DNA from: Marinobacter adhaerens HP15
GTDB taxonomy: Bacteria; Pseudomonadota; Gammaproteobacteria; Pseudomonadales; Oleiphilaceae
Reading direction: 5' to 3'
NCBI RefSeq assembly: GCF_000166295.1
Contig: NC_017506.1
Span: 4,216,001-4,280,000, forward strand
DNA length: 64,000 nt
Every line of letters begins with the position of its first letter. The stretch's first letter is position 1. Shown in pieces: positions 36,665 to 52,368 of this stretch. A program made the position numbers and the translations under genes. The notes beneath the pieces were generated by a model that was given only the letters and a program-made list of their open reading frames with translations, was not told the DNA's origin and did not search any database.

Positions 36665-37261
36665 TCATCGGGATGAGTCGCCTTTCTTGGGAAACAACCA
36701 GAATGCGAACCAGCGAGTCATTCTCGGCATGAGCACATAACTCATCAACAGCATCACCACCGCGGTGACCAGCAGTGTTCTTACAAAAAGCGGTATCTGT
36801 GCCAACCAGTCTCCGAACATGACGAAGACGAGCGTGACAGCCGGATAGAGTGCCAGCCAACTGACAAGGGTCATCTTCCATTTGGGTGGTGGCGTCACCG
36901 GATTCTGGCCTGGCAGAGTGAACCAGGTGACGATTCCCGAAGTCACTTCCCGTTCACTGGGTTGAACCAGCAAACTTTCTATCTGCTCCAGCAGCTCCGC
37001 TCTCTCATTGGAAGCTTCCCATGCAGCAAGGGATTCCCGGTCTCGGAACTTGAACACGATGCGGTATTCGGGATCGTCGGGTGACGCCGGCCGGAACATG
37101 GCAGTACCGAGATATCCCGGAAAACGCGATGCTCGTTCGGTCATTTTGCTGCTCAGAGCCTCGAACTCTTCCTGATTGCCTTTTTTGACCCGTCGAGAGA
37201 CGACAACTGTCAGAGGATCTGTTGGACCTTGTTGGCTGGCAGTTGATTGGCTATCCATCAT
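36665..37261 (-). CDS. Antibiotic biosynthesis monooxygenase-domain membrane protein
   Basis: A protein of 198 residues. The N-terminal half (about 15-110) is an ABM-type ferredoxin-like domain (LTVVVSRRVKKGNQEEFEALSSKMTERASRFPGYLGTAMF); the C-terminal half has two membrane helices (about 128-150 and 155-180). ATG 37261 follows TTGAGGAT. It lies after the terminator of the DUF1329 operon, so it is probably transcribed on its own. The ABM fold is often used by heme- or quinone-related enzymes, but the function here is unknown. Confidence 0.82.
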   Translation of the reverse strand: MMDSQSTASQQGPTDPLTVVVSRRVKKGNQEEFEALSSKMTERASRFPGYLGTAMFRPASPDDPEYRIVFKFRDRESLAAWEASNERAELLEQIESLLVQPSEREVTSGIVTWFTLPGQNPVTPPPKWKMTLVSWLALYPAVTLVFVMFGDWLAQIPLFVRTLLVTAVVMLLMSYVLMPRMTRWFAFWLFPKKGDSSR

Positions 37262-37282
37262 GTTCAATATCCTCAATGATCC

Positions 37283-37309
37283 AAAAAAGGGGCCCGCAGA
37301 AGCGGGCCC
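37283..37309 (-). terminator. Terminator of the DUF1329 operon
   Basis: GGGCCCGC and GCGGGCCC form a perfect 8-bp GC stem with a 4-base loop. On the reverse strand it is followed by six T residues. It lies 28 bases after the DUF1329 stop codon and closes the YCF48-RND-DUF1302-DUF1329 operon. Confidence 0.93.
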
Positions 37310-37336: not shown

Positions 37337-38665
37337 TCAGCTTCCGGTTGCCCGGAGGTGTTGAACGTTGAACATCTGGGGCGGCGACAGTTCCGGATCA
37401 ACCTGTCCCTTGAACTGGCCGGTGGTGCAGTGGCTGGCCTGGACGTCAATCATGCTGAAGCTGTCGTCAATGGACACACCGCTGCCCTTGTTTTTCGGCA
37501 GGTGGTGATCGGGGTGTGCCTGGCCAATGGTAAAGGTCTTCCAGAGGCTACCCTTGCGGTCGTAGGACACGGTTCGGGGAATGGTGAAGGTTTGTGCGTC
37601 CATGAAATGAACACGCTTTGAGAGCGGGTGGCTCTCGTCCACAGGAACGGATTCAACTTCGTAGACCTTGCGCAGCTGCCAGGTGATATCCGGGAAACAG
37701 CCACCCTGGCCACTGAAGGACACAACCTGATAACCATCACTGTCGCTGTGGGTTTCGGCATCCAGCGTCAGATCATTGTGGTTGTAAAAGGGCATCAGCA
37801 TGTAGCGAGTGCCTTTGTAGGTCCAGTTCATGTCTGAAATCCGGCCGTTATAGCCCTCAAAGTCCTCGATCATCAGATCAGAGCCGAGGAACGCGTCGGT
37901 GACCTGGCCAGTTGCCAGACGACGGACCCGACGCTGGAAGCCCAGGTACAACCAGGAGTTGTCCCGCTTCAGATCGTCCGCTGCACGATGGATCAGGAGC
38001 TGGGTGTTCCGGACATCAGCCGGGTCCAGTACCTGCACATAAATCGCCCGGAACAGGTCAGACGGGTTCGGCGTGATTTCTGGCGTCGGTTCCTGGATGA
38101 CCCGGCCTTTATAGTTCAGGAAGTGGAAGTTGAACTTGATAGTGCGTTCCACCTTGCCAGAGTCCATGTCCCGGTATTTCCAGTAGAACGGGTAGATAGC
38201 CGCGCTGTCGCCCCAGTTGTAGCCATACTTGTAGTTCCAGGCCAGCTTCTCGCCGGCTCGTGGATCGTTGGCGTCAGGTTCTTCGGGGAAGGGGCGGCCC
38301 GCACTCCAGCCACTGATCTCGCCTACCTCGTTTCCAAGAGACACCTGTCCCAGCGAAACCCGTGTAGCTTCGACATAGTTCGGATGCAGATCAAAGGAGG
38401 TGGTCTCGCCTACGGTGATGGTGGTCATGCCCTGCTCGATAAAACCGTAGAATGCGGGATCGATGGCGTCCTTGAACTGGGCAACGTTGCTCTGGTCAAT
38501 GACCATTCCGGCTTTTAGTCCATCAAAGCTCGGTGTCTCTGTGTTGTAGGGATAGAAGGAGTTGGTAATAACTGCTTCATCGGCCATTAGCGCTGTCGAC
38601 ATCAGGCCTGCCGTGCAGCCAGCCATCAGCCATCTAAAAACGGATTTGTTCTTTGTCGTAGTCAT
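37337..38665 (-). CDS. DUF1329 outer-membrane-associated protein
   Basis: A secreted protein of 442 residues: signal peptide about 1-28 ending in TALMADE, then the DUF1329 domain over almost the whole length. The domain is rich in beta strands and aromatic residues, with an LolA/LolB-like fold by family description. It is last in the four-gene operon driven by the sigma-54 promoter at 44156-44171, and lies 15 bases after the DUF1302 gene. DUF1329 and DUF1302 genes often sit together near degradation genes for steroids, hydrocarbons and aromatics; the molecular function is not known. A role in moving hydrophobic molecules across the envelope is my inference. Confidence 0.88.
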   Translation of the reverse strand: MTTTKNKSVFRWLMAGCTAGLMSTALMADEAVITNSFYPYNTETPSFDGLKAGMVIDQSNVAQFKDAIDPAFYGFIEQGMTTITVGETTSFDLHPNYVEATRVSLGQVSLGNEVGEISGWSAGRPFPEEPDANDPRAGEKLAWNYKYGYNWGDSAAIYPFYWKYRDMDSGKVERTIKFNFHFLNYKGRVIQEPTPEITPNPSDLFRAIYVQVLDPADVRNTQLLIHRAADDLKRDNSWLYLGFQRRVRRLATGQVTDAFLGSDLMIEDFEGYNGRISDMNWTYKGTRYMLMPFYNHNDLTLDAETHSDSDGYQVVSFSGQGGCFPDITWQLRKVYEVESVPVDESHPLSKRVHFMDAQTFTIPRTVSYDRKGSLWKTFTIGQAHPDHHLPKNKGSGVSIDDSFSMIDVQASHCTTGQFKGQVDPELSPPQMFNVQHLRATGS

Positions 38666-38680
38666 TTTGGTTCCTCGTTA

Positions 38681-40594
38681 TCAGAAGCTGTAACGTGCGG
38701 TCAGCTGGATTTCGTCTTCTTTCTGGGCCATGCCGATCGGTCCTGACTGGAAGCGGCCAAGGGGTTCGTATCCGGAAAGACCGGCAGATTCACCCGCAGG
38801 CTGGCCAGGATAGGCGGCAGTGAACGGATCCCAGGGGTTACAGGTGCGGCAGTCATCGAACTTGCGGGCACCATCGCCGACCTTGAAGTTGGCGCCGGCT
38901 GTGAGCCTGAAGTTGTCGTTAACCAGCCACTCCACTGACGGTGCAACTGCAGTTGCCTGGGCACGGACGTCGTGGGCGGTAATGATTTGTGGGCTGAGAC
39001 GGCCATTCATGTAGAAACCCTTGATCAACAGGGTCGCAATCCAGTTCTGTTCCCAGTCCGGAATGCCGGCTTCGCCCAGCAGACGCTGCTCGCGCTCGTG
39101 GTCAAGAATGTGCTGGCCAAAGATCTGACCGGAAAACAGGAACGCCTGGGACTCGTTCAGGGCAGGGATAAATATGTTCTTGTCGGCCCCCACGACGTAG
39201 CGAACGACATCAGACTCGGAATACAGCTTTTCGCGCAGGGTGTTGGCAAACTCTTCACCAGAGGTGTAGGCAGTTTCAACCCGGAACACGGTGTCGATGC
39301 CCTGGGAGTAGTAGTCCAGTGAGCCGCCGACCAGGTTTACTCTCGGGAAGTGGATATCGAACGCGATCAGGCTTGGCCAAACGGCGGTATCGCCGGTGAA
39401 TGCGTTCTCAGCCGGAATGCCACCGCGGAGGGAAGGGAGCTGGGAACGGTAGGTCAGAGCGTTCAGAGAGAAGCCGAGATCGCCGTATACACCTTCCAGT
39501 TTCAAACCCAGCTGGGTGTTGGAAAGGCTCCAGCTCGGCAGATGCGCCTCACGGATACCGATCTGCCCGGGGCCAAAGTCTGTTGCTATGCTGCCGTTGG
39601 CAAAGTTGGCAACGGTGCCGCCGTTTTCCCATAGATTATTCATACCACGGAAGAAGCAGCCTGCATCCAGGATAACGTTCGGCTGCCCACACTGGCCGAT
39701 ATCATGGGGACGGAACTGATCGAAGTTCCAGACCACCTGGAAGTTCAGGTCGTCGAAGGCCAGGCCATCGAATACCTCGGTGGGGCCCATGCGATAGTCT
39801 GACTTCAGGATCCACATGGGGATTCGGATGTCTTCCAACTCGTCGTAGATGTTGTTGCGGGAGAAATCCACCGGGTTGATAACATCCAGTACCCGGAACA
39901 AGTCCGTGCGGCCCCAGATGACCTGCTGTTTACCCAGGCGGGTGCTCAGCACGTTGCCGCTGTCGAAGTTCAGGTCAAAATCGACATAAAGTTCACGGAT
40001 GAAATCCGCCCGGTCGTTGAACTCCTGGAAACGAAGCTCGTTCAGATCCTTGTCCAGGTAGTCATCAATACAGCCCCGGCTGTCGACATCGCAGGGGCGC
40101 ACCGGAACACCAAATCCGACACCACCATCCTGAGGGTGCAGGTTTTCACCCAGGACGATCATGCCGTCGTTGGGGTTCTGGTTGATGTCGAAACCGAAGT
40201 TGGGTGTCGGAGCGATACCGCCACCATGGGGTACGAATGGGTCAGGATTGGGCGCCAGTGCGGTGTCTTCGAGAAGAATGGCACCACCAGCGGTACGTCC
40301 ATATTCATCCTTGTTCAGGTCGTACACCCCGTCATAGGTGCCGCGCAATGTGCCGTTGATGGAAACGTTGCTGAAAATGCCCACGTCGCCAATTCGTTTC
40401 TCGCCTTCCAGTTGCAGCGTATTCCGGAACTTGGATAGACCGACGCCCTCTCGCCCGTAGGTTGCGTTTTCGTAGAAACCGTTGACGCGGGCATCTTCCG
40501 CAGCAACGGCTGTAGTCATTGGAACCAGCGCCAGGGTGGCACTACCCGCAAGGGTGCAGCACCAGAACCTCAGGCCTTTTATTGTTGTTTGCAT
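38681..40594 (-). CDS. DUF1302 outer-membrane protein, predicted beta-barrel
   Basis: A secreted protein of 637 residues with signal peptide about 1-32 (ending in TTAVAAED). The sequence is in amphipathic strands with many Asn, Gly and aromatic residues and ends in ARYSF, an outer-membrane-barrel C-terminal signature. Its length and N-terminal pattern (FYENATYGREGVGLSKFRNTLQLEGEK) match DUF1302. It lies 43 bases after the RND gene in the same operon. By family and place it may be the outer-membrane pore or receptor for a hydrophobic compound handled by the RND protein. Confidence 0.88.
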   Translation of the reverse strand: MQTTIKGLRFWCCTLAGSATLALVPMTTAVAAEDARVNGFYENATYGREGVGLSKFRNTLQLEGEKRIGDVGIFSNVSINGTLRGTYDGVYDLNKDEYGRTAGGAILLEDTALAPNPDPFVPHGGGIAPTPNFGFDINQNPNDGMIVLGENLHPQDGGVGFGVPVRPCDVDSRGCIDDYLDKDLNELRFQEFNDRADFIRELYVDFDLNFDSGNVLSTRLGKQQVIWGRTDLFRVLDVINPVDFSRNNIYDELEDIRIPMWILKSDYRMGPTEVFDGLAFDDLNFQVVWNFDQFRPHDIGQCGQPNVILDAGCFFRGMNNLWENGGTVANFANGSIATDFGPGQIGIREAHLPSWSLSNTQLGLKLEGVYGDLGFSLNALTYRSQLPSLRGGIPAENAFTGDTAVWPSLIAFDIHFPRVNLVGGSLDYYSQGIDTVFRVETAYTSGEEFANTLREKLYSESDVVRYVVGADKNIFIPALNESQAFLFSGQIFGQHILDHEREQRLLGEAGIPDWEQNWIATLLIKGFYMNGRLSPQIITAHDVRAQATAVAPSVEWLVNDNFRLTAGANFKVGDGARKFDDCRTCNPWDPFTAAYPGQPAGESAGLSGYEPLGRFQSGPIGMAQKEDEIQLTARYSF

Positions 40595-40637
40595 GGCATG
40601 TCCTCGTTACAGGTTTTAGTGGGGCTTGGTACCGGGT

Positions 40638-43103
40638 TCAGGCCCGGTACGGCGCTCCCGTCACAAACCCATCGTCCTGTCTTGAATCCAACACAGGGGA
40701 TGGAGCTGATTTCGTTTCCTTGTGGTCCGAATGCAGGATTCCGTCTTCATCGGCATAGACGTCGGTGATGAATCGCGGTTTGAAGGCCAGTACCCAGGAA
40801 GGCACCAGCAGCATGGCGGCCATGCCGTTGATGACGATCATCACGCACAGCAGCAACGCAGCGTCGGACTGGAATCGAAGATTGGAGAAGATGACCCACA
40901 TGATGATCCCGGCCATCAGGGTCAGTGCGGTAAAACTGATGGCCATGCCTGTGGTTGAAATGGCACGTCTGACGGATTCGCGCAGGTCCCCGCACTTGGC
41001 CATTTCCTCGCGAATGCGGTCCATCATGTAGATGGAGTAATCGATACCTACGCCGATTCCCACAGCGATGACCGGAACGGTATTGATGTCGATGCTCAGA
41101 CCGTTCAGGCCCATGTAGGCGTAGGTGAGGGTGGTGGCGAACAGCATTGCCAGGAGCATCATCAGGCCGGCGTGCCAGGAGGTGTAGAACAGCATCACGA
41201 AGGCGAAGATGAGCAGAAAGACCAGTGGCAGAACGATCACATTGGTTTCAAAGGCTGATTCGTTCATGGCAGCTGCGACACCAAGCGTGCCGCCCGCCAG
41301 TCGAATGGTCAGGCCGTCAACGCTGTCTCCGTTTTCAGCGATCCATTCCTTGGCCATATGAATCGCACGACGGATGGTTTCGCCCTGACGGTCCTTGTAA
41401 TAGAACACCAGGTTGGCGACTCGATCGTCGGTGTCGTTGAACTCATCCAGGGCGCCAGGCACCGGGCTCGATGCCATGTACGTGAACATCAACCCACCCA
41501 CGTAGCCGGCATCGTGGGGGATCTGGTACCAGCGCGGGTCATCGTTGTGCATCAGACGATTCACTTGCTTGACCAGGTCGGGTAATCCCTTGCTGCCGCC
41601 CACTTCCGGATCCAGCAGCATATGGGCCTGAAGATCAGACAGGGCCTCAAGCACCTCGGGACGCTTCAGTCCGCCTTTTTCACTGGTTTCGGCAACAATG
41701 TAGAGCTCCTCGGAACCCGGGAAACGGTCATTAACCACGCGGGAAGAGATGTTGTAATCGTGGTCGGGGTAAAGGATCGGCGAGCCGGGCTCGGAATCAC
41801 CAATCTGTACATTGGATGCGGCCAGCAAACCACCCAGCATGGATATAGCTGCCACGGCGAGAATGACTCGGGCCGCTCCGGGTCGAGTGACGGTTCGAGA
41901 GCAGCTGGCACCGATGTGGCGCAAGGCAGTTTCGCGAATTTCCGGATTCTTGGGCGTAGGCAGAATGGAGAGCAGTAGCGGAACACCGATCAGGACGGTA
42001 AAAACAACGGTGATCGCCCAGAGTGACGCGTAGATGCCAAGATGGGTGTTCAGGGGGATCGAGCCAATGGCGATCAACGACAGACCAATGGCGTCGGAGA
42101 CCACCCCCAGAGAGCCTGGCCGGAAAAGGCTGTCGAAGGTTGCTTTCGCCGCCTTTGGGCCGCTACCCAGTACCAGGGTCTCTGCATAGTAGCGCTCGAC
42201 CAGTTGCACACCGTGGCTCATGGCTCGCGCTGCAATCAAAAAGGGGATTACCAGACCTAAGGGGTCCAGGTTGTAGCCGAGTACACTGATAATCCCAAGT
42301 CCCCACACGGTGGAGATGAGAACGCCTCCAAGGGGGATTAGCACACCGTACGCTTTACGGAAGTGGAAGATGAGCAGTGCCAGCATGGTCAGCACTGTGA
42401 AAATGAAGATCTGAAGGATCTGGTCCATGTAAGTGTAGGCCCAGCCCACCAGCACCGGCTGACCGGTGGCGTAGATGGTGACACCCTCGCCAGCCTCATT
42501 GGCGCGCAGTTCCTGAAGTTGGGCAAAGGTTGCTTCGTAATCCAGTTTGCCTTCAATGAGCTGCGCCTTGACCAGCGCCATCTTCAGATCGGGGGAAACC
42601 AGCGGCCCGTAAACCCGCGGATTGGCGGCTACATCGGCGCGCATGGCATCCAGTGCCTGCTGGGAATATTCGCCGCTGGTAGAGTCGTAATAGGGCTCGG
42701 AGTTGATGCTGCCGACTTCCGTCAGCCAGATTTTCCGGGAATTGCGGTGGGTGACGCTGGAAACCAGGTTGTGGTTGACGCCCGGCAGGCTGTCGACCGC
42801 CTGGGTGATTCGATCGATTCTGGCCAGGTTGTCGTTAGTGAAGATATCACCGTCGGAAAACTCGACCCCGACCACAAGAACATTGGCACCACCGAAACTG
42901 TCCTTGATGCTGTTATGCAGCTGGATGTAAGGGTGTTGCTGAGGCAAAAGATCCGCGAAATCCGTGTAGATTTTCAGGCCTGGGATACGCAGGGCGAAGA
43001 TCAGTGTCAGTATCGCGATCACTGAAAGCACCTTGCGGGGGTTGTTGAATATCCACACTTCCAGCAGATGCAGCAGATGTGTGAAACGATGCAATCCGGG
43101 CAT
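40638..43103 (-). CDS. RND superfamily transporter, HAE3/MMPL type
   Basis: An inner-membrane transporter of 821 residues in two homologous halves. Each half has one helix, a periplasmic domain and a block of five to six helices. The second block has PVIAVGIGVGIDYSIYMMDRIREEM, the MMPL/HAE3 signature with the buried Asp. It is smaller than AcrB-type pumps (about 1050). HAE3 members move lipids, hopanoids or other hydrophobic molecules. Here it lies between a YCF48 lipoprotein gene and a DUF1302 gene, and is under the same kind of promoter as phenol degradation. Direction of transport is unknown. Confidence 0.9.
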   Translation of the reverse strand: MPGLHRFTHLLHLLEVWIFNNPRKVLSVIAILTLIFALRIPGLKIYTDFADLLPQQHPYIQLHNSIKDSFGGANVLVVGVEFSDGDIFTNDNLARIDRITQAVDSLPGVNHNLVSSVTHRNSRKIWLTEVGSINSEPYYDSTSGEYSQQALDAMRADVAANPRVYGPLVSPDLKMALVKAQLIEGKLDYEATFAQLQELRANEAGEGVTIYATGQPVLVGWAYTYMDQILQIFIFTVLTMLALLIFHFRKAYGVLIPLGGVLISTVWGLGIISVLGYNLDPLGLVIPFLIAARAMSHGVQLVERYYAETLVLGSGPKAAKATFDSLFRPGSLGVVSDAIGLSLIAIGSIPLNTHLGIYASLWAITVVFTVLIGVPLLLSILPTPKNPEIRETALRHIGASCSRTVTRPGAARVILAVAAISMLGGLLAASNVQIGDSEPGSPILYPDHDYNISSRVVNDRFPGSEELYIVAETSEKGGLKRPEVLEALSDLQAHMLLDPEVGGSKGLPDLVKQVNRLMHNDDPRWYQIPHDAGYVGGLMFTYMASSPVPGALDEFNDTDDRVANLVFYYKDRQGETIRRAIHMAKEWIAENGDSVDGLTIRLAGGTLGVAAAMNESAFETNVIVLPLVFLLIFAFVMLFYTSWHAGLMMLLAMLFATTLTYAYMGLNGLSIDINTVPVIAVGIGVGIDYSIYMMDRIREEMAKCGDLRESVRRAISTTGMAISFTALTLMAGIIMWVIFSNLRFQSDAALLLCVMIVINGMAAMLLVPSWVLAFKPRFITDVYADEDGILHSDHKETKSAPSPVLDSRQDDGFVTGAPYRA

Positions 43104-43114
43104 GGTTGATATCC

Positions 43115-44107
43115 TCAGTCTTTGCTGGCGGCGTTCGCCGCAGGAAGTTCAAGGTCGAAAAGCAGGCCACGACCTCCGGCAACAAGCAGTCTTTGCTCGG
43201 GCATGAGCAGGCCGGTTCGCAGATACAGCGGCTGGTCAGATTCCGAGATTTTTTTCCAGGCGGGCCCCTGCAACTGAAGAACGGTGGCATTGTCGGCAAC
43301 CGCATAGAGTTCGGGGCTGCCGGGGATGAAACCGAATACCGGAGCATTGGTCTCAGTAGGCATCTGCTCCCAGCTCTCACCACCGTCTGTGGTGTGGTAG
43401 ATGAACCCGTTCAGGCCGCCAACCCAACCCTCCTCCATGGAGCGGAAGTAGCTGGTATGGGCGTAGAACTCATCCGGCAGATAACCGGCGTAATCCCAGT
43501 TAAAGCCACCATCATCGCTGCGAAGCACCATGCCGTACTCGCCGGTGGCGATGGCCTGATCCTCGTTAATGAACTGCAGGTTGTTGATGATGGCGTCTTC
43601 GTAAAGAGAGGTTTCATCCCAGTTCTGGCCCAGATCAGAGCTGTACTGGATGGTGGTAAAGCTGCCTGCTGCCCACCAACTTCCGTCAGGGGCACAAGCC
43701 ACGGTCAACATTTGTTCCTGGCTCGGCAACGGGTGCGGGGTCCAGAGGCTTCCCTGGACATTGCCTTGCCATACCTGGTTGTCGAAGGTCAGTCCGATAA
43801 ATGAGTTGTCCGGGCAGACATCCAGAGCCAAAAAGCTTGCTGTGGAATTCAGTGCCTGTCTCTTCCAGGTTTCGCCGTTATCCCGGCTGGTAAGCAGTAC
43901 ACCGTCGTTGCCAGTAACGACAATGACCTGATCGTTCCGGACCATGGACTGGTAGAAGTCTGTGCGCTTGGAGGATTGTTCGGAAACCTGGCGTACCGCC
44001 TCGAGATTGAGGGGCGCTTCGCAACCCGTCAGCAGCAGCGATGAACTACTGGCTATTGCGATCGCTGTACCGACAGTGCGCCATGAGCGCAGAGGGGTAT
44101 TTTGCAT
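43115..44107 (-). CDS. YCF48/BNR-repeat lipoprotein
   Basis: A lipoprotein of 330 residues: LLLTGC puts the lipidated Cys at position 29. The mature part is built of repeated beta-propeller blades with Asp-box-like turns (SRDNGETW, SSDLGQNW, SDDGGFNW, TTDGGESW). YCF48 proteins (HCF136 in plants) help to assemble membrane complexes, so this one may help to assemble the RND/DUF1302 machinery; that is inference. It is the first gene of the operon, 11 bases before the RND gene, and its leader has an AAAAACAA motif. Confidence 0.87.
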   Translation of the reverse strand: MQNTPLRSWRTVGTAIAIASSSSLLLTGCEAPLNLEAVRQVSEQSSKRTDFYQSMVRNDQVIVVTGNDGVLLTSRDNGETWKRQALNSTASFLALDVCPDNSFIGLTFDNQVWQGNVQGSLWTPHPLPSQEQMLTVACAPDGSWWAAGSFTTIQYSSDLGQNWDETSLYEDAIINNLQFINEDQAIATGEYGMVLRSDDGGFNWDYAGYLPDEFYAHTSYFRSMEEGWVGGLNGFIYHTTDGGESWEQMPTETNAPVFGFIPGSPELYAVADNATVLQLQGPAWKKISESDQPLYLRTGLLMPEQRLLVAGGRGLLFDLELPAANAASKD

Positions 44108-44155: not shown

Positions 44156-44171
44156 AGCAACCGGTATGCCA
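44156..44171 (-). promoter_or_regulatory. Sigma-54 promoter of the YCF48-RND-DUF1302-DUF1329 operon
   Basis: On the reverse strand TGGCATACCGGTTGCT fits the sigma-54 consensus (TGGCAY-N5-TTGCW) at every position. Transcription should start near 44145, about 38 bases before the YCF48 start codon. DmpR-type sites lie about 95-120 bases upstream, and the DmpR-type regulator gene ends just beyond them. Confidence 0.9.
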
Positions 44172-44263: not shown

Positions 44264-44290
44264 TTTGATTTTAATCAAATGATCAAACCA
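44264..44290. promoter_or_regulatory. Candidate DmpR/XylR-type upstream activating site for the transporter operon
   Basis: TTTGATTTTAATCAAA (44264-44279) is a perfect 7-2-7 palindrome. It runs into ATCAAATGATCAAACCA (44274-44290), so TTGATCA-type half-sites repeat on both strands. This is the style of XylR/DmpR enhancer sites, and ATCAAATGAT is shared with the site at 46183 before dmpK. Confidence 0.65.
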
Positions 44291-44363: not shown

Positions 44364-46070
44364 TCAGTTTTCGGCGAGGATGCCGGATTTTTTAAGCCGG
44401 TAGGCCAGGGCCGGGCGGGTAAGTCCGAGTATGCGTGCAGCACCAGAGACATTTTGGTTGGCCTGCTCCATGGCGCGGCGCATGAGTGTCTCTTCAACTT
44501 CATCCAGACTGATGGAGTCGCCCAGAATCTGATCCGCCCAGCCCCCGGAATTTCCTGGTGAACCTTCGTGTACCACATGACCCTCGCCATCCACGACTTC
44601 ATGGGGTTTTTCCGAATGATTGTCCGGGAAGACGGCGAACAAGGATTCCTGACTGATAGATTCGTTGTTATCAGTAAGAATCACGCCCCGCTCGATCACG
44701 TTTTCAAGCTCTCGAATATTTCCGGGCCAACGATAATTCATACACAGAGCCAGTGCCTTGTCCGAAAGACCCAGGGTTCTTTTGTTGTATTCCGAATGGA
44801 ACTTCTTTAGAAAATGCTCCACCAGTAGAGGCAGATCTTCCAGCCGGTCCCGAAGGGGTGGGATTTTTACCGGGAACACATTCAGTCGGTAGTACAGGTC
44901 CGCGCGGAACTTACCGGATTCAACGGCTTCGGCGAGGCTTTCGTTCGTGGCAGCAATCACTCGAACATTGACCGACCGGGTGCGATTGTCACCCACCCGT
45001 TCGAGTTCACCTTCCTGCAGTACCCTTAACAGCGTGGCCTGCGCTCGAGCCGTAAGTTCGACCACCTCATCCAGAAAAATGGTGCCACCGTTAGCCCGCT
45101 CGAAGCGGCCCGGACGTGACTGATTCGCGCCGGTGTAGGCGCCCTTTTCGACACCAAAGAGTTCGGCTTCAATCAGGTCGGGAGGTATGGCTGCACAGTT
45201 CACGGCGACAAACGGCTGCTCCGCCCGCTCGCTGCGGAGGTGGACGCTTCTGGCGATGACCTCTTTGCCGACGCCGGTTTCACCCAGAAGGAGGACCGAG
45301 ACCTTGCCCATGGCGGCCTTGTCGATCATCTTGCAGACCTTGTTATAAGACGCGGACTGGCCAATGCCGTAATACTGCCCCTGTTGATTCTCAAGGCTGC
45401 TGCGAAGTGAGCTCACCTGAGACTGCAAGTCGTAGAGCTCTTCGATCATGGGGTCTGCTTTGAAGTATTTGATGAACTCCTCTGAGTCTTCCCACTCTTC
45501 GGCCGGTTTCCCGACGATGTGGCATTTCTCGTCGCCGCAGCCCCGGCAGGTGACCTCCTTGAAAATGATCTGGCGTCCCATAAACGAGGAGGTATATGCG
45601 CAGGCATAGCCGAGCAGCGACCAGCAGGCAGGCTCGTCCATCTGGCCGAGTTCGGTCTGACAGATCTCCACCTCGAAAGAGTCAAACCAGTCAAGTTCCC
45701 CGTAAAAGCCCCCAGTGTCCTGATCGATATCAATCTCAATCGGGATGACTTTCACCATGCCCTTCAGAGAATGGAGCTGGGGCCCGGCCAGGAATATGTC
45801 CAGTTCGCTGCAGTGCGGGCGAAGCTTGCGGGCAAGTTCTGCATCCCGAAGTCCGGACTGATAGCCAAGGCGCAGGAAAAACCCTTTTGCCCGTTCAATG
45901 CCGATGGTATTGACCATCTCACGGCGGAATGCAGCCATGGCGGAGACCTGCATGAGGAGCATCCGCTGTTCGCCAAACCAGATTTTGCCTTCCGTGCTTT
46001 GAAACCGGATCTGTTCCGTAAGATCCTGAAAGTCCGCGTATTGCAGCTGTGGCTTGTAGCTGATTGCCAT
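44364..46070 (-). CDS. dmpR: Sigma-54-dependent phenol-responsive activator (DmpR/PhhR/MopR type)
   Basis: A one-component activator of 568 residues (DmpR is 563). The sensor domain (1-210) begins MAISYKPQLQ and has His100 and Trp128, the phenol contacts of DmpR/MopR. The V4R zinc site is in CRGCGDEKCHIVG. Next come the linker, the AAA+ domain (GETGVGKE Walker A, a GAYTGA loop, LDEVVEL) and a Fis-type helix-turn-helix at the end (NVSGAARILGLTRPALAYRL). I use ATG 46070; the frame is open to 46139 but the extra residues do not match the family. AACAACAA lies 15 bases before the start. It should activate the sigma-54 promoters on both sides. Confidence 0.94.
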   Translation of the reverse strand: MAISYKPQLQYADFQDLTEQIRFQSTEGKIWFGEQRMLLMQVSAMAAFRREMVNTIGIERAKGFFLRLGYQSGLRDAELARKLRPHCSELDIFLAGPQLHSLKGMVKVIPIEIDIDQDTGGFYGELDWFDSFEVEICQTELGQMDEPACWSLLGYACAYTSSFMGRQIIFKEVTCRGCGDEKCHIVGKPAEEWEDSEEFIKYFKADPMIEELYDLQSQVSSLRSSLENQQGQYYGIGQSASYNKVCKMIDKAAMGKVSVLLLGETGVGKEVIARSVHLRSERAEQPFVAVNCAAIPPDLIEAELFGVEKGAYTGANQSRPGRFERANGGTIFLDEVVELTARAQATLLRVLQEGELERVGDNRTRSVNVRVIAATNESLAEAVESGKFRADLYYRLNVFPVKIPPLRDRLEDLPLLVEHFLKKFHSEYNKRTLGLSDKALALCMNYRWPGNIRELENVIERGVILTDNNESISQESLFAVFPDNHSEKPHEVVDGEGHVVHEGSPGNSGGWADQILGDSISLDEVEETLMRRAMEQANQNVSGAARILGLTRPALAYRLKKSGILAEN

Positions 46071-46084
46071 GTCAGGAGCCCCGT

Positions 46085-46092
46085 TTGTTGTT
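46085..46092 (-). promoter_or_regulatory. A-rich (Crc/Hfq-like) motif before dmpR
   Basis: AACAACAA on the reverse strand, 14 bases before the dmpR start codon. It fits AANAANAA. If real, it would lower translation of the activator when a preferred carbon source is present. Confidence 0.4.
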
Positions 46093-46182
46093 GTGTGGGG
46101 TTGGGGTTGTGCCCTGGTTGAGAGTCCGAGTGCGGGCACGAAATTGCTGCTCTATATAACACCTGATGAAAGTCAAAAATCA

Positions 46183-46366: not shown

Positions 46367-46379
46367 GAAAACTTTGATT
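46367..46379 (-). promoter_or_regulatory. Possible IHF site between the enhancers and the dmp promoter
   Basis: On the reverse strand AATCAAAGTTTTC fits the IHF consensus WATCAA-N4-TTR at all but the last base. It lies in an A/T-rich stretch 18 bases before the -24 element. IHF bending is common at DmpR/XylR promoters. The match is weak. Confidence 0.3.
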
Positions 46380-46396
46380 GTCGCCCGCTCAGGGTT

Positions 46397-46412
46397 TGGC
46401 ACACCCGTTGCT
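46397..46412 (+). promoter_or_regulatory. Sigma-54 promoter of the dmp operon
   Basis: TGGCACACCCGTTGCT matches the consensus TGGCAC-N5-TTGCW exactly. Transcription should start near 46423, about 30 bases before the dmpK start codon. It has the same -24/-12 elements as the promoter at 44156-44171 on the other strand. Confidence 0.93.
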
Positions 46413-46427
46413 CCTCTCTCACCAGCC

Positions 46428-46435
46428 AACAACAA
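46428..46435 (+). promoter_or_regulatory. A-rich (Crc/Hfq-like) motif before dmpK
   Basis: AACAACAA, 17 bases before the dmpK start codon, within the first bases of the predicted mRNA. Similar motifs lie at 46741-46748 (dmpL), 48058-48065 (inside dmpN, just after its start), 49641-49648 (dmpO), 51415-51425 (dmpB) and 55518-55525 (dmpF). Confidence 0.45.
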
Positions 46436-46452
46436 AGACAATGGGGCAAACA

Positions 46453-46713
46453 ATGACGACCCAGAACGACATCAAATCCTTCGACGAGCTGACGCGATAC
46501 ATCCGGGTGCGGAGTGAGCCGGGCGACAAGTTCGTGGAATTCGACTTCGCCATTGGTTACCCGGAGCTGTTCGTTGAACTCGTTCTTCCCCGCGAGGCCT
46601 TCGAAATCTTCTGCAGGCACAACAAGGTTGTCCACATGGATTCCGAGATGATCCGCGAGATCGATGAAGACATGGTCAAGTGGCGCTTCGGGGAGCGTGG
46701 GCAGCGTTACTGA
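46453..46713 (+). CDS. dmpK: Phenol hydroxylase assembly component P0
   Basis: A small protein of 86 residues. DmpK is not needed for catalysis but for making active enzyme, probably in iron loading of the oxygenase. The middle FVEFDFAIGYPELFVELVLPREAFEIFCRHNKVVHMDSEM is typical of the family. I use ATG 46453 with GGGG upstream; ATG 46441 is in frame but has no ribosome site. First gene of the sigma-54 operon. Confidence 0.88.
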   Translation: MTTQNDIKSFDELTRYIRVRSEPGDKFVEFDFAIGYPELFVELVLPREAFEIFCRHNKVVHMDSEMIREIDEDMVKWRFGERGQRY

Positions 46714-46763
46714 GCGAAGCGCATCAGCATCCATATTCACAACAACAAGACGGTAAGGTTGAT

Positions 46764-47765
46764 ATGAGTATCGAAATCAAGACCAATTCGGTGGAACCCA
46801 TCCGCCACACCTATGGCCACATTGCCCGTCGCTTTGGCGACAAGCCGGCAACCCGCTATCAGGAAGCCAGTTACGACATTGAGGCCAAGACCAACTTCCA
46901 CTATCGGCCGCAATGGGATTCCGAGCATACCCTGAACGATCCGACGCGCACCGCGATCCGCATGGAAGACTGGTATGCGGTTACCGATCCGCGCCAGTTC
47001 TATTACGGCGCCTATGTAGGCAATCGCGCCAAGATGCAGGAGGCGGCCGAGACCAGCTTTGGTTTCTGCGAGAAGCGTAATCTGCTGACCCGCCTTCCCC
47101 AGGAAACCCAGAAACAGCTACTACGCCTGCTGGTGCCCCTGCGTCATGTTGAGCTTGGTGCCAACATGAATAACAGCAAGATCGCCGGTGATGCGACCGC
47201 CACAACTGTCTCCCAGATGCATATCTACACCGGGATGGATCGACTGGGGATTGGCCAGTACCTCTCCCGGATTGCCCTGATGATTGACGGCAGCACCGGG
47301 GCTGGACTCGATGAATCCAAGGGCTACTGGATGGATGACGAGCTCTGGCAGCCCATGCGCAAACTGGTCGAAGACTCCCTGGTGATTGATGACTGGTTCG
47401 AGCTGACCCTGGTTCAGAACATCCTCATGGACGGCCTGATGTATCCCCTGGTCTACGACAAGATCGACACCTGGTTCGAGAGCCAGGGTGCGGAGGATGT
47501 CTCCATGCTCACCGAGTTCATGCGCGACTGGTACAAGGAGTCGCTTCGCTGGACCAACGCCATGCTGAAAGTTGTTGCGGGTGAAAGCGACGACAACCGT
47601 GAACTGCTTCAGAAGTGGATCGATCACTGGGAGCCCCAGGCCTACAACGCCCTGAAACCGTTGGCGCAAGCCTCAGCTGGCATCGACGCGCTAGACGAAG
47701 CCCGCGCCGAACTCGCCACCCGTCTCAAAAAATGTGGCTTGCAGAGCCAGGGAGTATCCGCATGA
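46764..47765 (+). CDS. dmpL: Phenol hydroxylase P1, oxygenase beta subunit
   Basis: Structural subunit of the (alpha-beta-gamma)2 diiron hydroxylase, 333 residues (DmpL is 331). It has the ferritin-like fold of the family without a full set of iron ligands; blocks such as RIEDWYAVTDPRQFYYGAYVGNRA (here RMEDWY...) are typical. ATG 46764 follows AAGGTTGAT. The end overlaps dmpM by ATGA. Confidence 0.94.
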   Translation: MSIEIKTNSVEPIRHTYGHIARRFGDKPATRYQEASYDIEAKTNFHYRPQWDSEHTLNDPTRTAIRMEDWYAVTDPRQFYYGAYVGNRAKMQEAAETSFGFCEKRNLLTRLPQETQKQLLRLLVPLRHVELGANMNNSKIAGDATATTVSQMHIYTGMDRLGIGQYLSRIALMIDGSTGAGLDESKGYWMDDELWQPMRKLVEDSLVIDDWFELTLVQNILMDGLMYPLVYDKIDTWFESQGAEDVSMLTEFMRDWYKESLRWTNAMLKVVAGESDDNRELLQKWIDHWEPQAYNALKPLAQASAGIDALDEARAELATRLKKCGLQSQGVSA

Positions 47766-48031
47766 GCCAGCTCGTATTCATTGCCTTTCAGGACAACGAC
47801 AACGCCCGGTATCTGGCGGAAGCCATTATGGAGGACAACCCGGAAGCGGAGCTCCAGCACCAGCCAGCAATGATCCGGATCCAGGCCGAGAAGCGCCTGG
47901 TCATCAACCGGGAAACAATGGAAGAAAAGCTTGGCCGGGACTGGGACGTTCAGGAAATGCTCATCGATGTAATCAGTATCGGCGGCAATGTCGATGAAGA
48001 CGATGACCACTTCATTCTTCAGTGGAACTAA
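47762..48031 (+). CDS. dmpM: Phenol hydroxylase P2, regulatory (effector) protein
   Basis: A cofactor-free coupling protein of 89 residues (DmpM is 90). It binds the hydroxylase and is needed for efficient turnover. VFIAFQDNDNARYLAEAIMEDNP and the acidic end (VDEDDDHFILQWN) match the family. The start overlaps the dmpL stop by 4 bases, which shows the true start in a longer open frame. Confidence 0.94.
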   Translation: MSQLVFIAFQDNDNARYLAEAIMEDNPEAELQHQPAMIRIQAEKRLVINRETMEEKLGRDWDVQEMLIDVISIGGNVDEDDDHFILQWN

Positions 48032-48045
48032 TCGGGAGACCTATC

Positions 48046-49593
48046 ATGGCTGTTAAAAACAAGAAATTGAACCTTAAAGACAAGTACCAGTACCTGACCC
48101 GGGATATGTCCTGGGAGCCGACCTACCAGAAGAAAGAAGACATCTACCCGGACGAGCGGTTCGAAGGCATCAAGATTACCGACTGGTCCCAGTGGGAGGA
48201 TCCGTTCCGGCTGACCATGGATGCCTACTGGAAGTACCAGGCCGAGAAAGAGAAGAAGCTGTACGCGATTTTTGATGCGTTCGCCCAGAACAATGGTCAC
48301 CAGAACATTTCAGATGCCCGTTACGTCAACGCGCTGAAGCTGTTTCTCAGTGGTGTGTCGCCGCTGGAGCATGCGGCGTACCAGGGTTATGCCAAGGTTG
48401 GCCGCCAGTTCAGCGGTGCCGGTGCGCGGGTCGCCTGTCAGATGCAGGCCATTGACGAGCTGCGTCATTCCCAGACCCAGCAGCACGCGATGAGCCACTA
48501 CAACAAACACTTCAACGGGTTGCATGATGCGGCGCACATGCACGACCGGGTGTGGTTCCTCTCGGTGCCGAAGTCGTTCTTTGACGACGCTCGCTCTGCC
48601 GGCCCGTTCGAGTTCCTGACGGCGATTTCGTTCTCGTTCGAGTATGTGCTGACGAACCTTTTGTTCGTGCCGTTCATGTCCGGCGCAGCCTACAACGGCG
48701 ATATGGCAACCGTTACCTTCGGTTTCTCCGCCCAGTCAGACGAAGCCCGGCACATGACTCTTGGTCTTGAGGTGATCAAGTTCATTCTGGAGCAGCACGA
48801 AGACAACGTGCCCATCGTCCAGCAGTGGATCGACAAGTGGTTCTGGCGTGGTTTCCGCCTGCTGAGCCTGGTGGGGATGATGATGGACTACATGCTGCCG
48901 AACAAGGTCATGTCCTGGGCGGAAGCCTGGGAGGTGTACTACGAGCAGAACGGGGGCGCGCTGTTCAAGGACCTGGAGCGTTATGGCATTCGTCCGCCCA
49001 AGTACCAGGACATCGCCAATGACGCGAAGAACCATGTAAGCCATCAGGCGTGGGCCACCTTCTACCAGTACGGCCATGCCACCAACTTCCACACCTGGAT
49101 GCCTGAAAAGGAAGAGCTGGACTGGCTGTCCGAGAAGTATCCGGACACCTTCGACAAGTACTACCGTCCACGCTTCGAGCATTGGGCGAAGGAGCACGCC
49201 GAAGGCCGTCGCTTCTACAACAACACGCTGCCCCAGCTGTGTCAGGTGTGCCAGATCCCGACCATTTTCACCGAGAAAGACGATCCGAGCATGCTCAGCC
49301 ACCGCCAGATCGAGCATGAGGGCGAACGTTATCACTTCTGCTCGGACGGATGCTGCGACATCTTCAAGAACGAGCCCGAGAAATACGTCCAGGCATGGCT
49401 GCCCGTGCACCAGATCTACCAGGGCAACTGTGAAGGCGGCGACGTCGAGACGGTGGTTTCGAAGTACTACCACATCAATATCGGCGAAGACAATTTCGAC
49501 TATGTGGGGTCCCCGGACCAGAAGCGCTGGCTCGCCATAAAGGGCAAGTCATCCGAGGAGAAGACCGAGAGCGCCAAGCAAGACGCAGCCTGA
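48046..49593 (+). CDS. dmpN: Phenol hydroxylase P3, oxygenase alpha subunit (diiron)
   Basis: Catalytic subunit that adds oxygen to phenol to give catechol, 515 residues. The carboxylate-bridged diiron site is complete: Glu108 (PLEHA), Glu138 and His141 (DELRH), Glu199 (FSFEY), Glu233 and His236 (SDEARH). A C-terminal Cys cluster (CQVCQIP, CSDGCCD) is the zinc-like YHS-type region seen in family members. The start has CGGGAG before it. A stem-loop follows the gene. Confidence 0.95.
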   Translation: MAVKNKKLNLKDKYQYLTRDMSWEPTYQKKEDIYPDERFEGIKITDWSQWEDPFRLTMDAYWKYQAEKEKKLYAIFDAFAQNNGHQNISDARYVNALKLFLSGVSPLEHAAYQGYAKVGRQFSGAGARVACQMQAIDELRHSQTQQHAMSHYNKHFNGLHDAAHMHDRVWFLSVPKSFFDDARSAGPFEFLTAISFSFEYVLTNLLFVPFMSGAAYNGDMATVTFGFSAQSDEARHMTLGLEVIKFILEQHEDNVPIVQQWIDKWFWRGFRLLSLVGMMMDYMLPNKVMSWAEAWEVYYEQNGGALFKDLERYGIRPPKYQDIANDAKNHVSHQAWATFYQYGHATNFHTWMPEKEELDWLSEKYPDTFDKYYRPRFEHWAKEHAEGRRFYNNTLPQLCQVCQIPTIFTEKDDPSMLSHRQIEHEGERYHFCSDGCCDIFKNEPEKYVQAWLPVHQIYQGNCEGGDVETVVSKYYHINIGEDNFDYVGSPDQKRWLAIKGKSSEEKTESAKQDAA

Positions 49594-49603
49594 TCCGGGA
49601 TTC

Positions 49604-49626
49604 GCCCGGTGTCATTGGCACCGGGC
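49604..49626 (+). other. Stem-loop between dmpN and dmpO
   Basis: GCCCGGTG and CACCGGGC form a perfect 8-bp stem with a 7-base loop, 11 bases after the dmpN stop. The bases after it (GTTTCACC) are not a terminator T run. It may protect the upstream mRNA from 3' exonucleases or reduce read-through. Confidence 0.55.
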
Positions 49627-49658
49627 GTTTCACCCACAAAAACAACAAGGTGACCATC

Positions 49659-50018
49659 ATGAGTGTGAACGCTTTATACGATTACAAGTTTGAACCCCGG
49701 GACAAGGTAGAGAACTTTCATGGCATGCAGTTGCTGTATCTCTACTGGCCCCACCATCTGATGTACTGCTCACCGTTTGCCTTCCTGGTGCAGCCAGACA
49801 TGACCTTTGGAGCCTTCATCGAGGAGGTGCTGAAGCCGGCGGTCGAGGCTCACCCGGACTCGGCCAGAGCCAGATTCCTGGACGCCCAGTGGCAACTCAA
49901 CGGCGAGCCTTTCACGCCGGACCCATCGGCCACCCTTAAGAGCAGTGGCATTGACCACAAGAGCATGCTGACTGTGATCACTCCAGAACTGAACGGCATT
50001 GCCGGCTCTGCATCCTGA
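49659..50018 (+). CDS. dmpO: Phenol hydroxylase P4, oxygenase gamma subunit
   Basis: Small subunit of the diiron hydroxylase, 119 residues, the same as DmpO. MSVNALYDYKFEPRDKVENFHGMQLLYLYWPHHLMYCSP is typical. ATG 49659 follows AAGGTGA. It lies 65 bases after dmpN, the largest gap in the operon, and that gap holds a stem-loop and an AACAACAA motif. Confidence 0.94.
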   Translation: MSVNALYDYKFEPRDKVENFHGMQLLYLYWPHHLMYCSPFAFLVQPDMTFGAFIEEVLKPAVEAHPDSARARFLDAQWQLNGEPFTPDPSATLKSSGIDHKSMLTVITPELNGIAGSAS

Positions 50019-50028
50019 GGTAAGCGCC

Positions 50029-51090
50029 ATGAGTCACACCGTAACGATCGAGCCCATAGGCGAGCAGATTGAAGTGGAGGATGGGCAGACCATCCTTCAA
50101 GCCGCACTGCGCCAGGGTGTCTGGTTGCCGTTTGCCTGCGGGCATGGCACCTGCGCCACCTGTAAGGTCCAGGTACTGGAAGGTGATGTCGAAATTGGTG
50201 ACGCCTCGCCCTTCGCCCTGATGGATATCGAACGTGACGAGGGCAAGGTATTGGCCTGCTGCGCCACTGTTGAAAGCGATGTCACCATCGAAGCGGATAT
50301 CGATGTGGATCCGGATTTCGAGGGCTACCCGGTTGAGGACTATACCGCCACTGTGACGGGCATCGTGGAGCTTTCTCCAACCATCAGAGGTGTGCATTTG
50401 AAGCTGGACCGCCCCATGACGTTCCAGGCGGGCCAGTACATCAATATCGAGTTGCCTGGTGTCGATGGCGCCCGGGCATTCTCTCTGGCTAATCCACCCG
50501 GCAAAGCCGATGAAGTGGAGCTGCATGTTCGTCTCGTTGAGGGCGGTGCTGCCACTACTTACATCCACGAACAACTGAAAACCGGTGATGCGCTGAATCT
50601 TTCAGGCCCCTACGGCCAGTTCTTCGTACGCAGTTCCCAGCCTGGCGACCTGATCTTCATCGCTGGCGGTTCAGGGCTGTCCAGCCCCCAATCGATGATC
50701 CTGGATCTTCTGGAACAGAACGACGAACGCAAGATTGTCCTGTTCCAGGGCGCCAGAAACCTTGCCGAGCTCTACAACCGGGAGTTATTCGAGGCTCTGG
50801 ATCGCGATCACGACAACTTCACCTATGTACCGGCTCTCAGTCAGGCGGAAGAAGACGCTGAATGGCAGGGTTTCCGTGGCTATGTCCATGACGCCGCCAA
50901 AGCCCATTTCGATGGCCGTTTTGCTGGCAACAAGGCCTACCTGTGTGGCCCCCCTCCGATGATTGATGCGGCTATCACGGCACTGATGCAGGGGCGGCTG
51001 TTCGAGCGTGACATCTTTATGGAGAAGTTCCTGACAGCGGCGGACGGGGCGGAAGACACCCAGCGTTCGGCCCTGTTCAAGAAGATATAA
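50029..51090 (+). CDS. dmpP: Phenol hydroxylase P5, NADH:ferredoxin-type reductase
   Basis: Passes electrons from NADH through FAD and a 2Fe-2S centre to the oxygenase, 353 residues as in DmpP. The plant-type ferredoxin domain has Cys37, Cys42, Cys45 and Cys77. It is followed by a FAD-binding barrel (the RAFSLANPP block) and an NAD domain (FIAGGSGLSSPQSM, CGPPPMIDA). The start ATG 50029 is 10 bases after dmpO. Confidence 0.95.
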   Translation: MSHTVTIEPIGEQIEVEDGQTILQAALRQGVWLPFACGHGTCATCKVQVLEGDVEIGDASPFALMDIERDEGKVLACCATVESDVTIEADIDVDPDFEGYPVEDYTATVTGIVELSPTIRGVHLKLDRPMTFQAGQYINIELPGVDGARAFSLANPPGKADEVELHVRLVEGGAATTYIHEQLKTGDALNLSGPYGQFFVRSSQPGDLIFIAGGSGLSSPQSMILDLLEQNDERKIVLFQGARNLAELYNRELFEALDRDHDNFTYVPALSQAEEDAEWQGFRGYVHDAAKAHFDGRFAGNKAYLCGPPPMIDAAITALMQGRLFERDIFMEKFLTAADGAEDTQRSALFKKI

Positions 51091-51103
51091 CCGGAGGTGC
51101 GCC

Positions 51104-51439
51104 ATGGGTATCGGATGCCAGGTAACCAACCGGACAACCGGGGACAGCTTTACTTGCGGTGAAGGGCAAAGCGTTCTCAAAGCGATGGAGCAATGGGGTG
51201 TGAAGTGCGTTCCCGTCGGCTGCCGTGGCGGTGGCTGCGGCTTCTGCAAGATCCGGGTGGTCGAGGGTGAATACGAGTGCGGAAAGATGAGCCGCGCACA
51301 CGCACCGCCGGAAGCCATTGAGCAAGGGGAGGTCCTGGCCTGCCGGATCTATCCGGTCACCGATCTGACTATTGAGTGCCTGGAGCCATCCGCGCCGGGC
51401 GAAACGAGCGAGCAAACAACAACAAGAGCGTTGAGGTAA
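51104..51439 (+). CDS. dmpQ: Chloroplast-type ferredoxin that reactivates catechol dioxygenase
   Basis: A 2Fe-2S ferredoxin of 111 residues with Cys40, Cys45, Cys48 and Cys80. Its homologues XylT and DmpQ re-reduce catechol 2,3-dioxygenase that was oxidised by substituted catechols. Its place directly before the dioxygenase gene (5 bases) agrees. GGAGGTGCGCC precedes the start. Confidence 0.93.
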
Positions 51440-51444
51440 CTGTC

Positions 51445-52368
51445 ATGAAAAAAGGTGTAATGCGTCCCGGCCACGTCCAGATCCGCGTACTCGATATGGA
51501 TGAGGCCCTCAAACACTACACAGACCTTCTGGGTCTGATTGAAACCGACCGGGACGATCACGGTCGCGTGTATCTGAAAGCCTGGACGGAGGTGGACAAG
51601 TTCTCGGTTGTGCTCCGACCTGCTGATGAGCCTGGCATGGACTTTATGGCCTTCAAGGTGGTGGATGAAGCCTCCCTGCAGCAACTCGAAAAAGATCTGG
51701 CAGATCATGGCGTGGAGGTTGAACAGGTTCCGGAAGGGGAACTGAAAGATTGCGGTCGGCGGGTTCGGTTCAACGCCCCCTCGGGTCACACGTTCGAACT
51801 TTACGCTGACAAGAAGTACACCGGCAAATGGGGCATTACCGAAGTAAACCCGGAAGCCTGGCCGCGTGGCCTGGATGGCATGAAAGCGGTCCGCTTCGAC
51901 CACTGTCTTCTTTATGGGCCAGAGTTGGCTGCCACCTACGACCTGTTCGTTAACGTGCTCGGATTCTATCTGGCCGAACAGGTGCTCGACGGCGACGGAA
52001 CCCGAATCGCGCAGTTCCTCACTCTGTCCACCAAGGCTCATGACATTGCCTTTATTCATCATGAAGAGAAAGGCAAGTTCCACCACGCTTCGTTCTACCT
52101 GGAAACCTGGGAAGACGTGCTCAGGGCGGCCGATCTGATCTCTATGACCGACACCTCCATTGATATCGGTCCCACCCGACATGGCCTGACCCATGGCAAG
52201 ACGATCTATTTCTTCGATCCTTCCGGCAACCGCAACGAAGTGTTCTGTGGCGGAGATTACAACTACCCCGATCACAAGCCGGTTACCTGGCAGGCAGAGC
52301 AACTGGGCAAAGCCATCTTCTACCACGACCGGGTATTGAACGAACGGTTCCTGACGGTACTGACCTGA
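51445..52368 (+). CDS. dmpB: Catechol 2,3-dioxygenase
   Basis: Opens the catechol ring next to the hydroxyls (meta cleavage) to 2-hydroxymuconic semialdehyde, 307 residues as in XylE/DmpB. The Fe(II) ligands are at the standard numbers: His153, His214 and Glu265 ([24 protein letters not shown]). ATG 51445 begins [12 protein letters not shown]; the frame is open further upstream into dmpQ. Confidence 0.97.

Follow-up and report, generated by a model that had tools for sequence, protein, structure and literature searches.

The window analysed here is a stretch of 64,000 nucleotides of Marinobacter adhaerens HP15 (contig NC_017506.1, positions 4,216,001 to 4,280,000). Its minus strand carries, at 37337–44107, a four-gene envelope cassette which we consider, with moderate confidence, to be an accessory aromatic-inducible transporter of the AmeABCD-like four-part kind that extrudes hydrophobic aromatics and gives tolerance to them. 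The first-pass annotation of this DNA had already recognized a four-gene envelope module at this place, and all four open reading frames (ORFs) indeed score above the Pfam cut-offs. They run in one direction with gaps of 11, 43 and 15 bp, in the transcription order YCF48 lipoprotein (C), MMPL/RND pump (D), DUF1302 protein (A) and DUF1329 protein (B).

The first gene (43115–44107, minus strand) encodes a 330-aa β-propeller lipoprotein of the YCF48 type (PSII_BNR/COG4447-like), with a score of 66.1 bits against Pfam PSII_BNR/YCF48 (PF14870; cut-off 27, E = 4e-18) and matches to solved Ycf48 structures, 5ojp among them (E = 7e-19). Its score against the Ycf48 equivalog NF010237 (66.6 bits) is under the NCBIfam cut-off of 326. 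A putative lipobox, LLLTGC, was recognized by eye; a lipobox pattern is found in 68 of 79 YCF48 relatives and a C-E-A-P/R-L pattern in 58 of the 79, both counts missing some proteins through start-codon choice and the strictness of the pattern. The second gene (40638–43103, minus strand) encodes an inner-membrane transporter of 821 aa. It had been annotated as HAE3/MMPL, and the MMPL part of this assignment stands (PF03176, 91.5 bits with a cut-off of 20.5, E = 6.7e-26), whereas the HAE3 model TIGR00921 gives 128.3 bits, below its curated NCBIfam cut-off of 351.9. Scores against the NCBIfam models of the HpnN hopanoid transporter (31.8 bits, cut-off 751.85) and the BstA sterol transporter (25.8 bits, cut-off 1400) also fall below the cut-offs. 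The hydropathy profile, with membrane blocks at residues 22–47, 225–434 and 615–775 around two long hydrophilic loops, fits the RND layout of 12 transmembrane (TM) segments, and the residue pair D688-Y689 is invariant across our pump alignment (A1) and the same in the three paralogues of the pump in its own genome. The pump is 100% identical in Marinobacter sp. EhC06, and M. guineae and M. shengliensis likewise carry the cassette. The third gene (38681–40594, minus strand) encodes a predicted outer-membrane β-barrel of 637 aa (Pfam DUF1302, 154.4 bits, cut-off 23.2), and the fourth (37337–38665, minus strand) a periplasmic protein of 442 aa (Pfam DUF1329, 254 bits, cut-off 23.1; LolA_like, 64.6 bits, cut-off 30), with a putative signal-peptide-like N-terminus (by eye) and a predicted LolA/LolB-fold domain at approximately residues 130–442.

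The DUF1302 protein has no sequence relative in the PDB. In the VIA-align list, the solved folds nearest to its predicted model are uptake channels of the OprD/Occ group, including OpdK with vanillate, and a BenF-like porin; this is an apparent likeness of fold only, with 8–12% identity in the OprD/Occ rows. FadL/TodX is absent from the 50 VIA-align rows listed for this protein, which excludes nothing. For the DUF1329 family, the solved structure 4z48 shows a LolA-type fold, and our model shares the LolA/LolB fold with the solved members in the VIA-align comparison. The predicted folds would suit a trans-envelope route with a possibly OprD-like DUF1302 barrel and a LolA-type DUF1329 carrier, and the inner-to-outer membrane transport path that had been proposed for this module appears supported by the protein families and the modelled folds together.

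A sigma-54 −24/−12 promoter of the cassette, TGGCATACCGGTTGCT, is located at 44156–44171 (minus strand), 48 bp upstream of the YCF48 start codon. The motif in the window was rejected as proof by itself: it has three matches there, which is not above chance (28 of 100 shuffles reach at least three), and its conservation in relatives was therefore used as the promoter evidence. These relatives are 80 named loci, the best 80 of 207 found and biased to close relatives, two of which (L035 and L092) contain too little sequence upstream of YCF48 to be counted. A site matching 10 or 11 of the 11 consensus positions is present upstream of YCF48 in 65 of the 78 testable loci, whereas such a score is reached by 0.54% of 3900 Markov shuffles and, among 229 control upstream regions, by none; since the loci are mutually related, these are not 78 independent observations, and the palindrome counts given below overstate independence in the same way. 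The palindrome TTTGAT-N4-ATCAAA (44264–44279, minus strand), a candidate enhancer site of a DmpR/MobR-type regulator, is centred 100 nt upstream of the −24 element. Among upstream regions with a matching sigma-54 site (66 cassettes including that of the window, and 49 hydroxylase promoters), it is found at 10 or more of 12 positions in 28 of the 66 cassette regions versus ∼2.7% of shuffles, an enrichment that is partly circular because these very sequences had been read when the consensus was picked. More telling is the fixed distance: 25 of the 28 strong palindromes are centred 97–101 nt upstream of the −24 element. At hydroxylase promoters the palindrome is weaker (9 of 49 versus 4.7% of shuffles), and the one at the hydroxylase promoter of the window scores 9 of 12. 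Sites of XylR/DmpR are quoted at 100–200 nt upstream (PMC6449761), a range that the position of the candidate palindrome fits, with one palindrome only.

The regulator gene itself (44364–46139, minus strand) lies directly beyond and encodes an activator of the DmpR/CapR/MobR/MopR type. It combines XylR_N, V4R, sigma-54 AAA and Fis helix-turn-helix domains, which is the DmpR/MobR/MopR architecture, and aligns to the DmpR-type CapR (6iy8) with 826 bits over 463 aa; against MobR NF041906 it scores 727.5 bits, with the NCBIfam cut-off of 999 not reached. In the open-licence literature searched, no paper brings MopR and phenol together with H106 and W134, candidate phenol-binding residues. Divergent from the cassette, on the other side of the regulator, are the genes of a multicomponent phenol hydroxylase, a ferredoxin and catechol 2,3-dioxygenase (46378–52368, plus strand), and another of the three sigma-54 matches, at 46397–46412 (plus strand), is the putative promoter of this operon. 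The cassette is probably under the same phenol switch as these adjoining degradation genes. At its other end, downstream of DUF1329, an intrinsic-terminator-like hairpin followed by CTTTTTT is present at 37290–37309 (minus strand); terminator-like sites are not enriched in the region (8 found versus 9.5 expected). The hairpin and the sigma-54 site are the likely ends of the operon.

The link to phenol degradation is real and extends further than the promoter. In 124 genomes of the same genus, an orthologous pump (E ≤ 1e-200) is present in 30 and the hydroxylase alpha subunit (E ≤ 1e-100; in two of them a type only 65–66% identical) in 41. All 30 are within the 41, and the pump is found in none of the 83 hydroxylase-negative genomes (Fisher p = 6e-20). 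In genomes G441 and G464, the match to the alpha subunit contains one internal TGA each. The same association is seen in a draw of 369 genomes from the class, in which the pump search scored only two candidates per genome and related pumps occur in 86 (E ≤ 1e-30). With the genome of the window excluded (368 genomes), 12 have a hydroxylase at least 60% identical and 7 a pump at least 50% identical, and 6 have both, so that the pump is present in 6 of 12 hydroxylase genomes versus 1 of 356 others (Fisher p = 2e-9); this seventh genome (G008) is without a hydroxylase match, and in G302 the pump is present only in pieces. In the neighborhoods from this draw, the cassette lies within 20 kb of the hydroxylase at L152, L156, L157 and L158 and ∼25 kb from hydroxylase pieces at L153; the second cassette of G350 (L164) has no hydroxylase in its stretch, and L150 (cut by a contig end), L151, L154 and L155 have a hydroxylase and no cassette within theirs. 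Compared with the 80 loci, the draws from genus and class test the link with less bias. That a sigma-54 promoter ties this copy to phenol degradation, as the first-pass annotation had claimed, is supported by the conserved site and by the co-occurrence in genus and class.

In the 80 loci, a hydroxylase gene is within 10 kb of the cassette in 60 and only lower meta-pathway genes in 6, which places 66 of 80 cassettes near phenol or meta-cleavage genes; 14 loci have neither, six of them with incomplete flanks. All four cassette genes were detected in 76 loci, with order and strand the same in 76 of 76 (DUF1302 is readable in 75 of the 80 and YCF48 in 79). Of 56 loci with an alpha-subunit match, 45 are divergent with the regulator between cassette and hydroxylase; in the others the cassette is downstream on the same strand (seven), upstream on the same strand (one) or divergent without the regulator between (three). 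Cassette and hydroxylase thus stand in four arrangements to each other, and their link has withstood rearrangement. The order within the cassette is not absolute, since locus L158 (G091), with a cassette of the same clade adjoining phenol hydroxylase and catechol 2,3-dioxygenase genes, has the order C-D-B-A. Five of the eight full-flank loci with neither gene set were inspected in part. In two of them, L046 (17063–21114) and L077 (17147–19272), a cassette of the same clade stands beside genes of a VanA-type Rieske oxygenase and a reductase, with an XylR_N regulator present in L046 and a regulator match of just 41% in L077; these neighbors suggest a second class of substrates, namely methoxy-aromatics or other phenolic compounds. 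In L065 (1270–8357), the cassette is beside an XylR_N/sigma-54 regulator, a molybdopterin hydroxylase and an XdhC-like protein, and in L069 and L083 a scan of just four proteins and one protein, respectively, found no aromatic-degradation gene. The neighbors in these loci indicate that the tie is to aromatic catabolism, mostly of phenol, often with an XylR/DmpR-type regulator. Phenols, their toxic intermediates or solvent-damaged lipids had been proposed as the substrate class, and the tie to aromatic catabolism stands; phenol itself is a doubtful cargo, because many hydroxylase carriers are without the cassette and some cassettes adjoin Rieske or molybdopterin hydroxylase genes.

The suggestion that the module is an undescribed system was rejected, as the same set of four proteins is already in print (PMC6394551, PMC6449761 and PMC13101534, in the portions available to us, to which what follows on published systems is likewise limited). 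AmeABCD of Castellaniella defragrans (PMC6394551, 2018) shares the DUF1302 barrel, DUF1329/LolA, COG4447/YCF48 and HAE3-like RND components, and like the cassette of the window it adjoins catabolic genes; it is inducible by the hydrophobic compound that is degraded, as is probable for the window cassette as well. It differs in handling monoterpenes, whereas our cassette is tied to phenolics, and in its order A-B-C-D, which is said to be conserved; with its order C-D-A-B, the window cassette is therefore filed in the same broader kind only and not in the AmeABCD lineage. A mutant without ameABCD tolerated monoterpenes less well and accumulated slightly more Nile Red, in line with export (PMC6394551). 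Operons of Betaproteobacteria with COG4447, COG1033, PF07044 and DUF1302, the same four families as in the window, are predicted to be controlled by AphS/AphR/AphT together with phenol catabolism, AphR of Burkholderia sp. 383 being of the XylR/DmpR group, and their authors propose that the four families serve in coping with toxic aromatics (PMC6449761, 2019). That report concerns prediction in Betaproteobacteria, and the gammaproteobacterial hydroxylase-linked clade is not met in its available text. The 'Nanopod' cluster of the benzene degrader ORM2 (PMC13101534, 2026) likewise combines a porin-like protein, DUF1329, YCF48 and an MMPL transporter and is tied to aromatic hydrocarbon degradation, with the direction left open; ORM2 is an anaerobe, two extra genes (universal stress protein and hypothetical) lie between, and the porin-like protein carries the label hypothetical instead of DUF1302 in the available text. 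In Pseudomonas putida, PP_0765/PP_0766 and PP_2018/PP_2019 comprise DUF1302, DUF1329, a periplasmic protein and a multidrug efflux transporter, and the DUF pair was proposed from fitness data and co-folding to be part of a novel transport system (PMC10866462, 2024); these genes are at two loci, their phenotype is on Tween 20, and the periplasmic protein is not named as YCF48 in the available text. The EtpR-controlled putative solvent-'efflux' cluster of strain EbN1 (PMC4630880), beside p-ethylphenol genes, resembles our cassette in its sigma-54, DmpR-family control, and a phenol-hydroxylase cluster of Zoogloea contains DUF1302 and DUF1329 genes (PMC7012976). In gene content, the window has all four families clustered with an aromatic-catabolism regulator, and the cassette is a further case of a known four-part kind. 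For the phenol-regulon clade in Gammaproteobacteria, mostly of the order C-D-A-B, no description was found in the open-licence literature searched.

For the effector, complex formation, cargo and direction of transport, we infer the following scheme. The DmpR/MobR-type regulator would sense a phenolic effector, bind the palindrome ∼100 nt upstream and fire the sigma-54 promoter. The RND pump, presumably proton-driven, would remove hydrophobic aromatics (for example phenols, alkylphenols or co-occurring hydrocarbons) from the inner membrane, the LolA-fold DUF1329 protein would ferry them across the periplasm, and the OprD-like DUF1302 barrel would let them through the outer membrane, with the YCF48 lipoprotein as a scaffold for the pump. 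The gain would be tolerance of the toxic substrate while it is being degraded.

Several observations weigh against this reading. The solved folds nearest to the barrel, uptake channels of OprD/Occ and BenF-like type, would suit import; the Nile Red effect in the ame mutant was slight, and real-time efflux was near-equal in mutant and wild type (PMC6394551); and the DUF1302/DUF1329 pair of P. putida is needed for growth on Tween 20, which can be read as uptake (PMC10866462). A near-consensus sigma-54 site is lacking in 13 of 78 loci, the palindrome is strong in just 28 of 66 cassettes and weak at hydroxylase promoters (9 of 49), with a consensus set post hoc. The pump is absent from 11 of the 41 hydroxylase-positive genomes of the genus, from 6 of the 12 in the class draw, and, at 60% identity or more on the same plasmid, from 27 of 28 hydroxylase plasmids (E ≤ 1e-100; plasmids only). 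The one plasmid that has such a pump is the conjugative plasmid of P. veronii T1. A strict need of the hydroxylase for the cassette was thus rejected, and since the hydroxylase also occurs without it, in genus genomes as well as plasmids, the cassette is accessory. A plasmid of Marinobacter salarius (NZ_CP021334.1) has a hydroxylase 90.6% identical to that of the window; it is absent from the 40 of 58 plasmid pump rows that are listed.

Five of the 11 pump-less genomes of the genus (L160, L161, L162, L163 and L165) were read at the locus. In L160, the match to the regulator is followed 90 bp on by the match to the ABM gene, and the cassette is wholly absent. In L163 (G412), three features judged by eye lie between regulator and ABM gene, namely a stretch resembling the palindrome, a start-like fragment and a hairpin of terminator-like form, and these are probably the deletion remnant of a cassette; another ORF of 525 aa is upstream of the ABM gene, and the phenol hydroxylase is retained. 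In L161, L162 and L165, other genes follow.

The same parts could also work inward, in which case the OprD-like barrel and the LolA-fold carrier would pick up aromatics that are scarce and dissolve poorly, in sea water or oil, and pass them on to the cell. We regard such an importer as unlikely: MMPL/RND pumps mostly export from the inner membrane, phenol passes membranes unaided, and the match of the DUF1302 model to OprD/Occ uptake channels such as OpdK with vanillate and to the BenF-like porin, which would otherwise speak for import, is one of predicted fold at 8–12% identity in the OprD/Occ rows. Import gains further from the P. putida growth defect on the hydrophobic substrate itself, Tween 20 (PMC10866462), and from the poorer growth on phenanthrene of a Delftia DUF1329 deletion mutant (cited in PMC13101534), whereas the rescue of the ame mutant by acetate, at up to 5 mM limonene, speaks for toxicity and not for hunger (PMC6394551). 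Rather improbable, in our estimate, is a role in envelope maintenance, in which the module would move a lipid (phospholipid, hopanoid-like or oxidized) in place of the aromatic and adapt the outer membrane under solvent stress, as the pump is far under the HpnN and BstA cut-offs and related cassettes accompany catabolic clusters for differing substrates.

The linkage to the catechol meta pathway, with only lower-pathway genes in 6 of 80 loci over the stretch covered, would agree with export not of the substrate but of a product of the pathway, such as leaked catechols or intermediates of ring cleavage, or of a hydrophobic signal. Meta-pathway intermediates are mostly charged and hydrophilic, however, and some cassettes adjoin Rieske or molybdopterin hydroxylase genes with no meta-cleavage genes in the stretch covered, so that we give this account little credence. 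That the cassette merely travels with catabolic islands as a bystander is hardly credible: its absence is tolerated (L160, and L163 with its probable remnant), but its own sigma-54 promoter is kept across rearranged loci and its co-occurrence with the hydroxylase in the genus is strict.

We raise one tentative possibility, to which we attach a low probability: the clade may be a dedicated phenolic-induced trans-periplasmic shuttle, with the LolA-fold carrier passing aromatic hydrophobes between the MMPL pump and the OprD-like barrel, perhaps serving uptake or exchange instead of efflux. If true, such a route would cross the Gram-negative envelope with neither an AcrA-type adaptor nor a TolC-type duct. 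DUF1302/DUF1329/MMPL modules are widespread and recur beside genes for aromatic and hydrocarbon degradation. The clade suits a clean test, since it offers a single class of inducer, a single conserved promoter and closely related Marinobacter in which the same regulator either has the cassette next to it or lacks it; knowledge of cargo and direction would help in understanding solvent tolerance during biodegradation and would assign a function to two DUF families.

The 4.65-Mb genome contains further modules of this type: L012 (A-B-C-D), L013 (C-D-A-B), L014 (B-C-D), an A-B pair (L011) and a lone B (L015). L012 is near thiolase, SDR and enoyl-CoA hydratase genes, and L013 near CoA-transferase, HMGL-like and hydantoinase genes. 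A C-D-A-B cassette beside β-oxidation genes is also present on plasmid 2 of Aromatoleum aromaticum EbN1. In the pump tree, which is rooted at the midpoint only, the window falls in a clade of 25 rows (100/100), apart from the lineage with B-C-D order. The window's own copy, L120, was omitted from the tree as a duplicate, and L122 and L128 were outside the length filter. L127, L130, L137, L139 and L145 form a long-branch group, probably read in a wrong frame through longest-ORF choice, and nothing is drawn from these doubtful rows.

Past the terminator, at 36665–37276 (minus strand), the window encodes an ABM (monooxygenase-like) domain protein with C-terminal TM segments. It was rejected as a fifth member of the cassette, being unmatched beside many cassettes (tblastn, E 1e-8) and staying in L160 without a cassette, and it is probably not part of the machine. 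A 236-aa ORF behind the meta-pathway genes (58554–59264, plus strand) is without a Pfam match at E 0.001. The genes at 18656–27162 (plus strand), which encode a membrane-fusion protein and an AcrB-type RND pump followed by FtsX-family and CrtC/lipocalin-like proteins, are another envelope transport cluster of the window.

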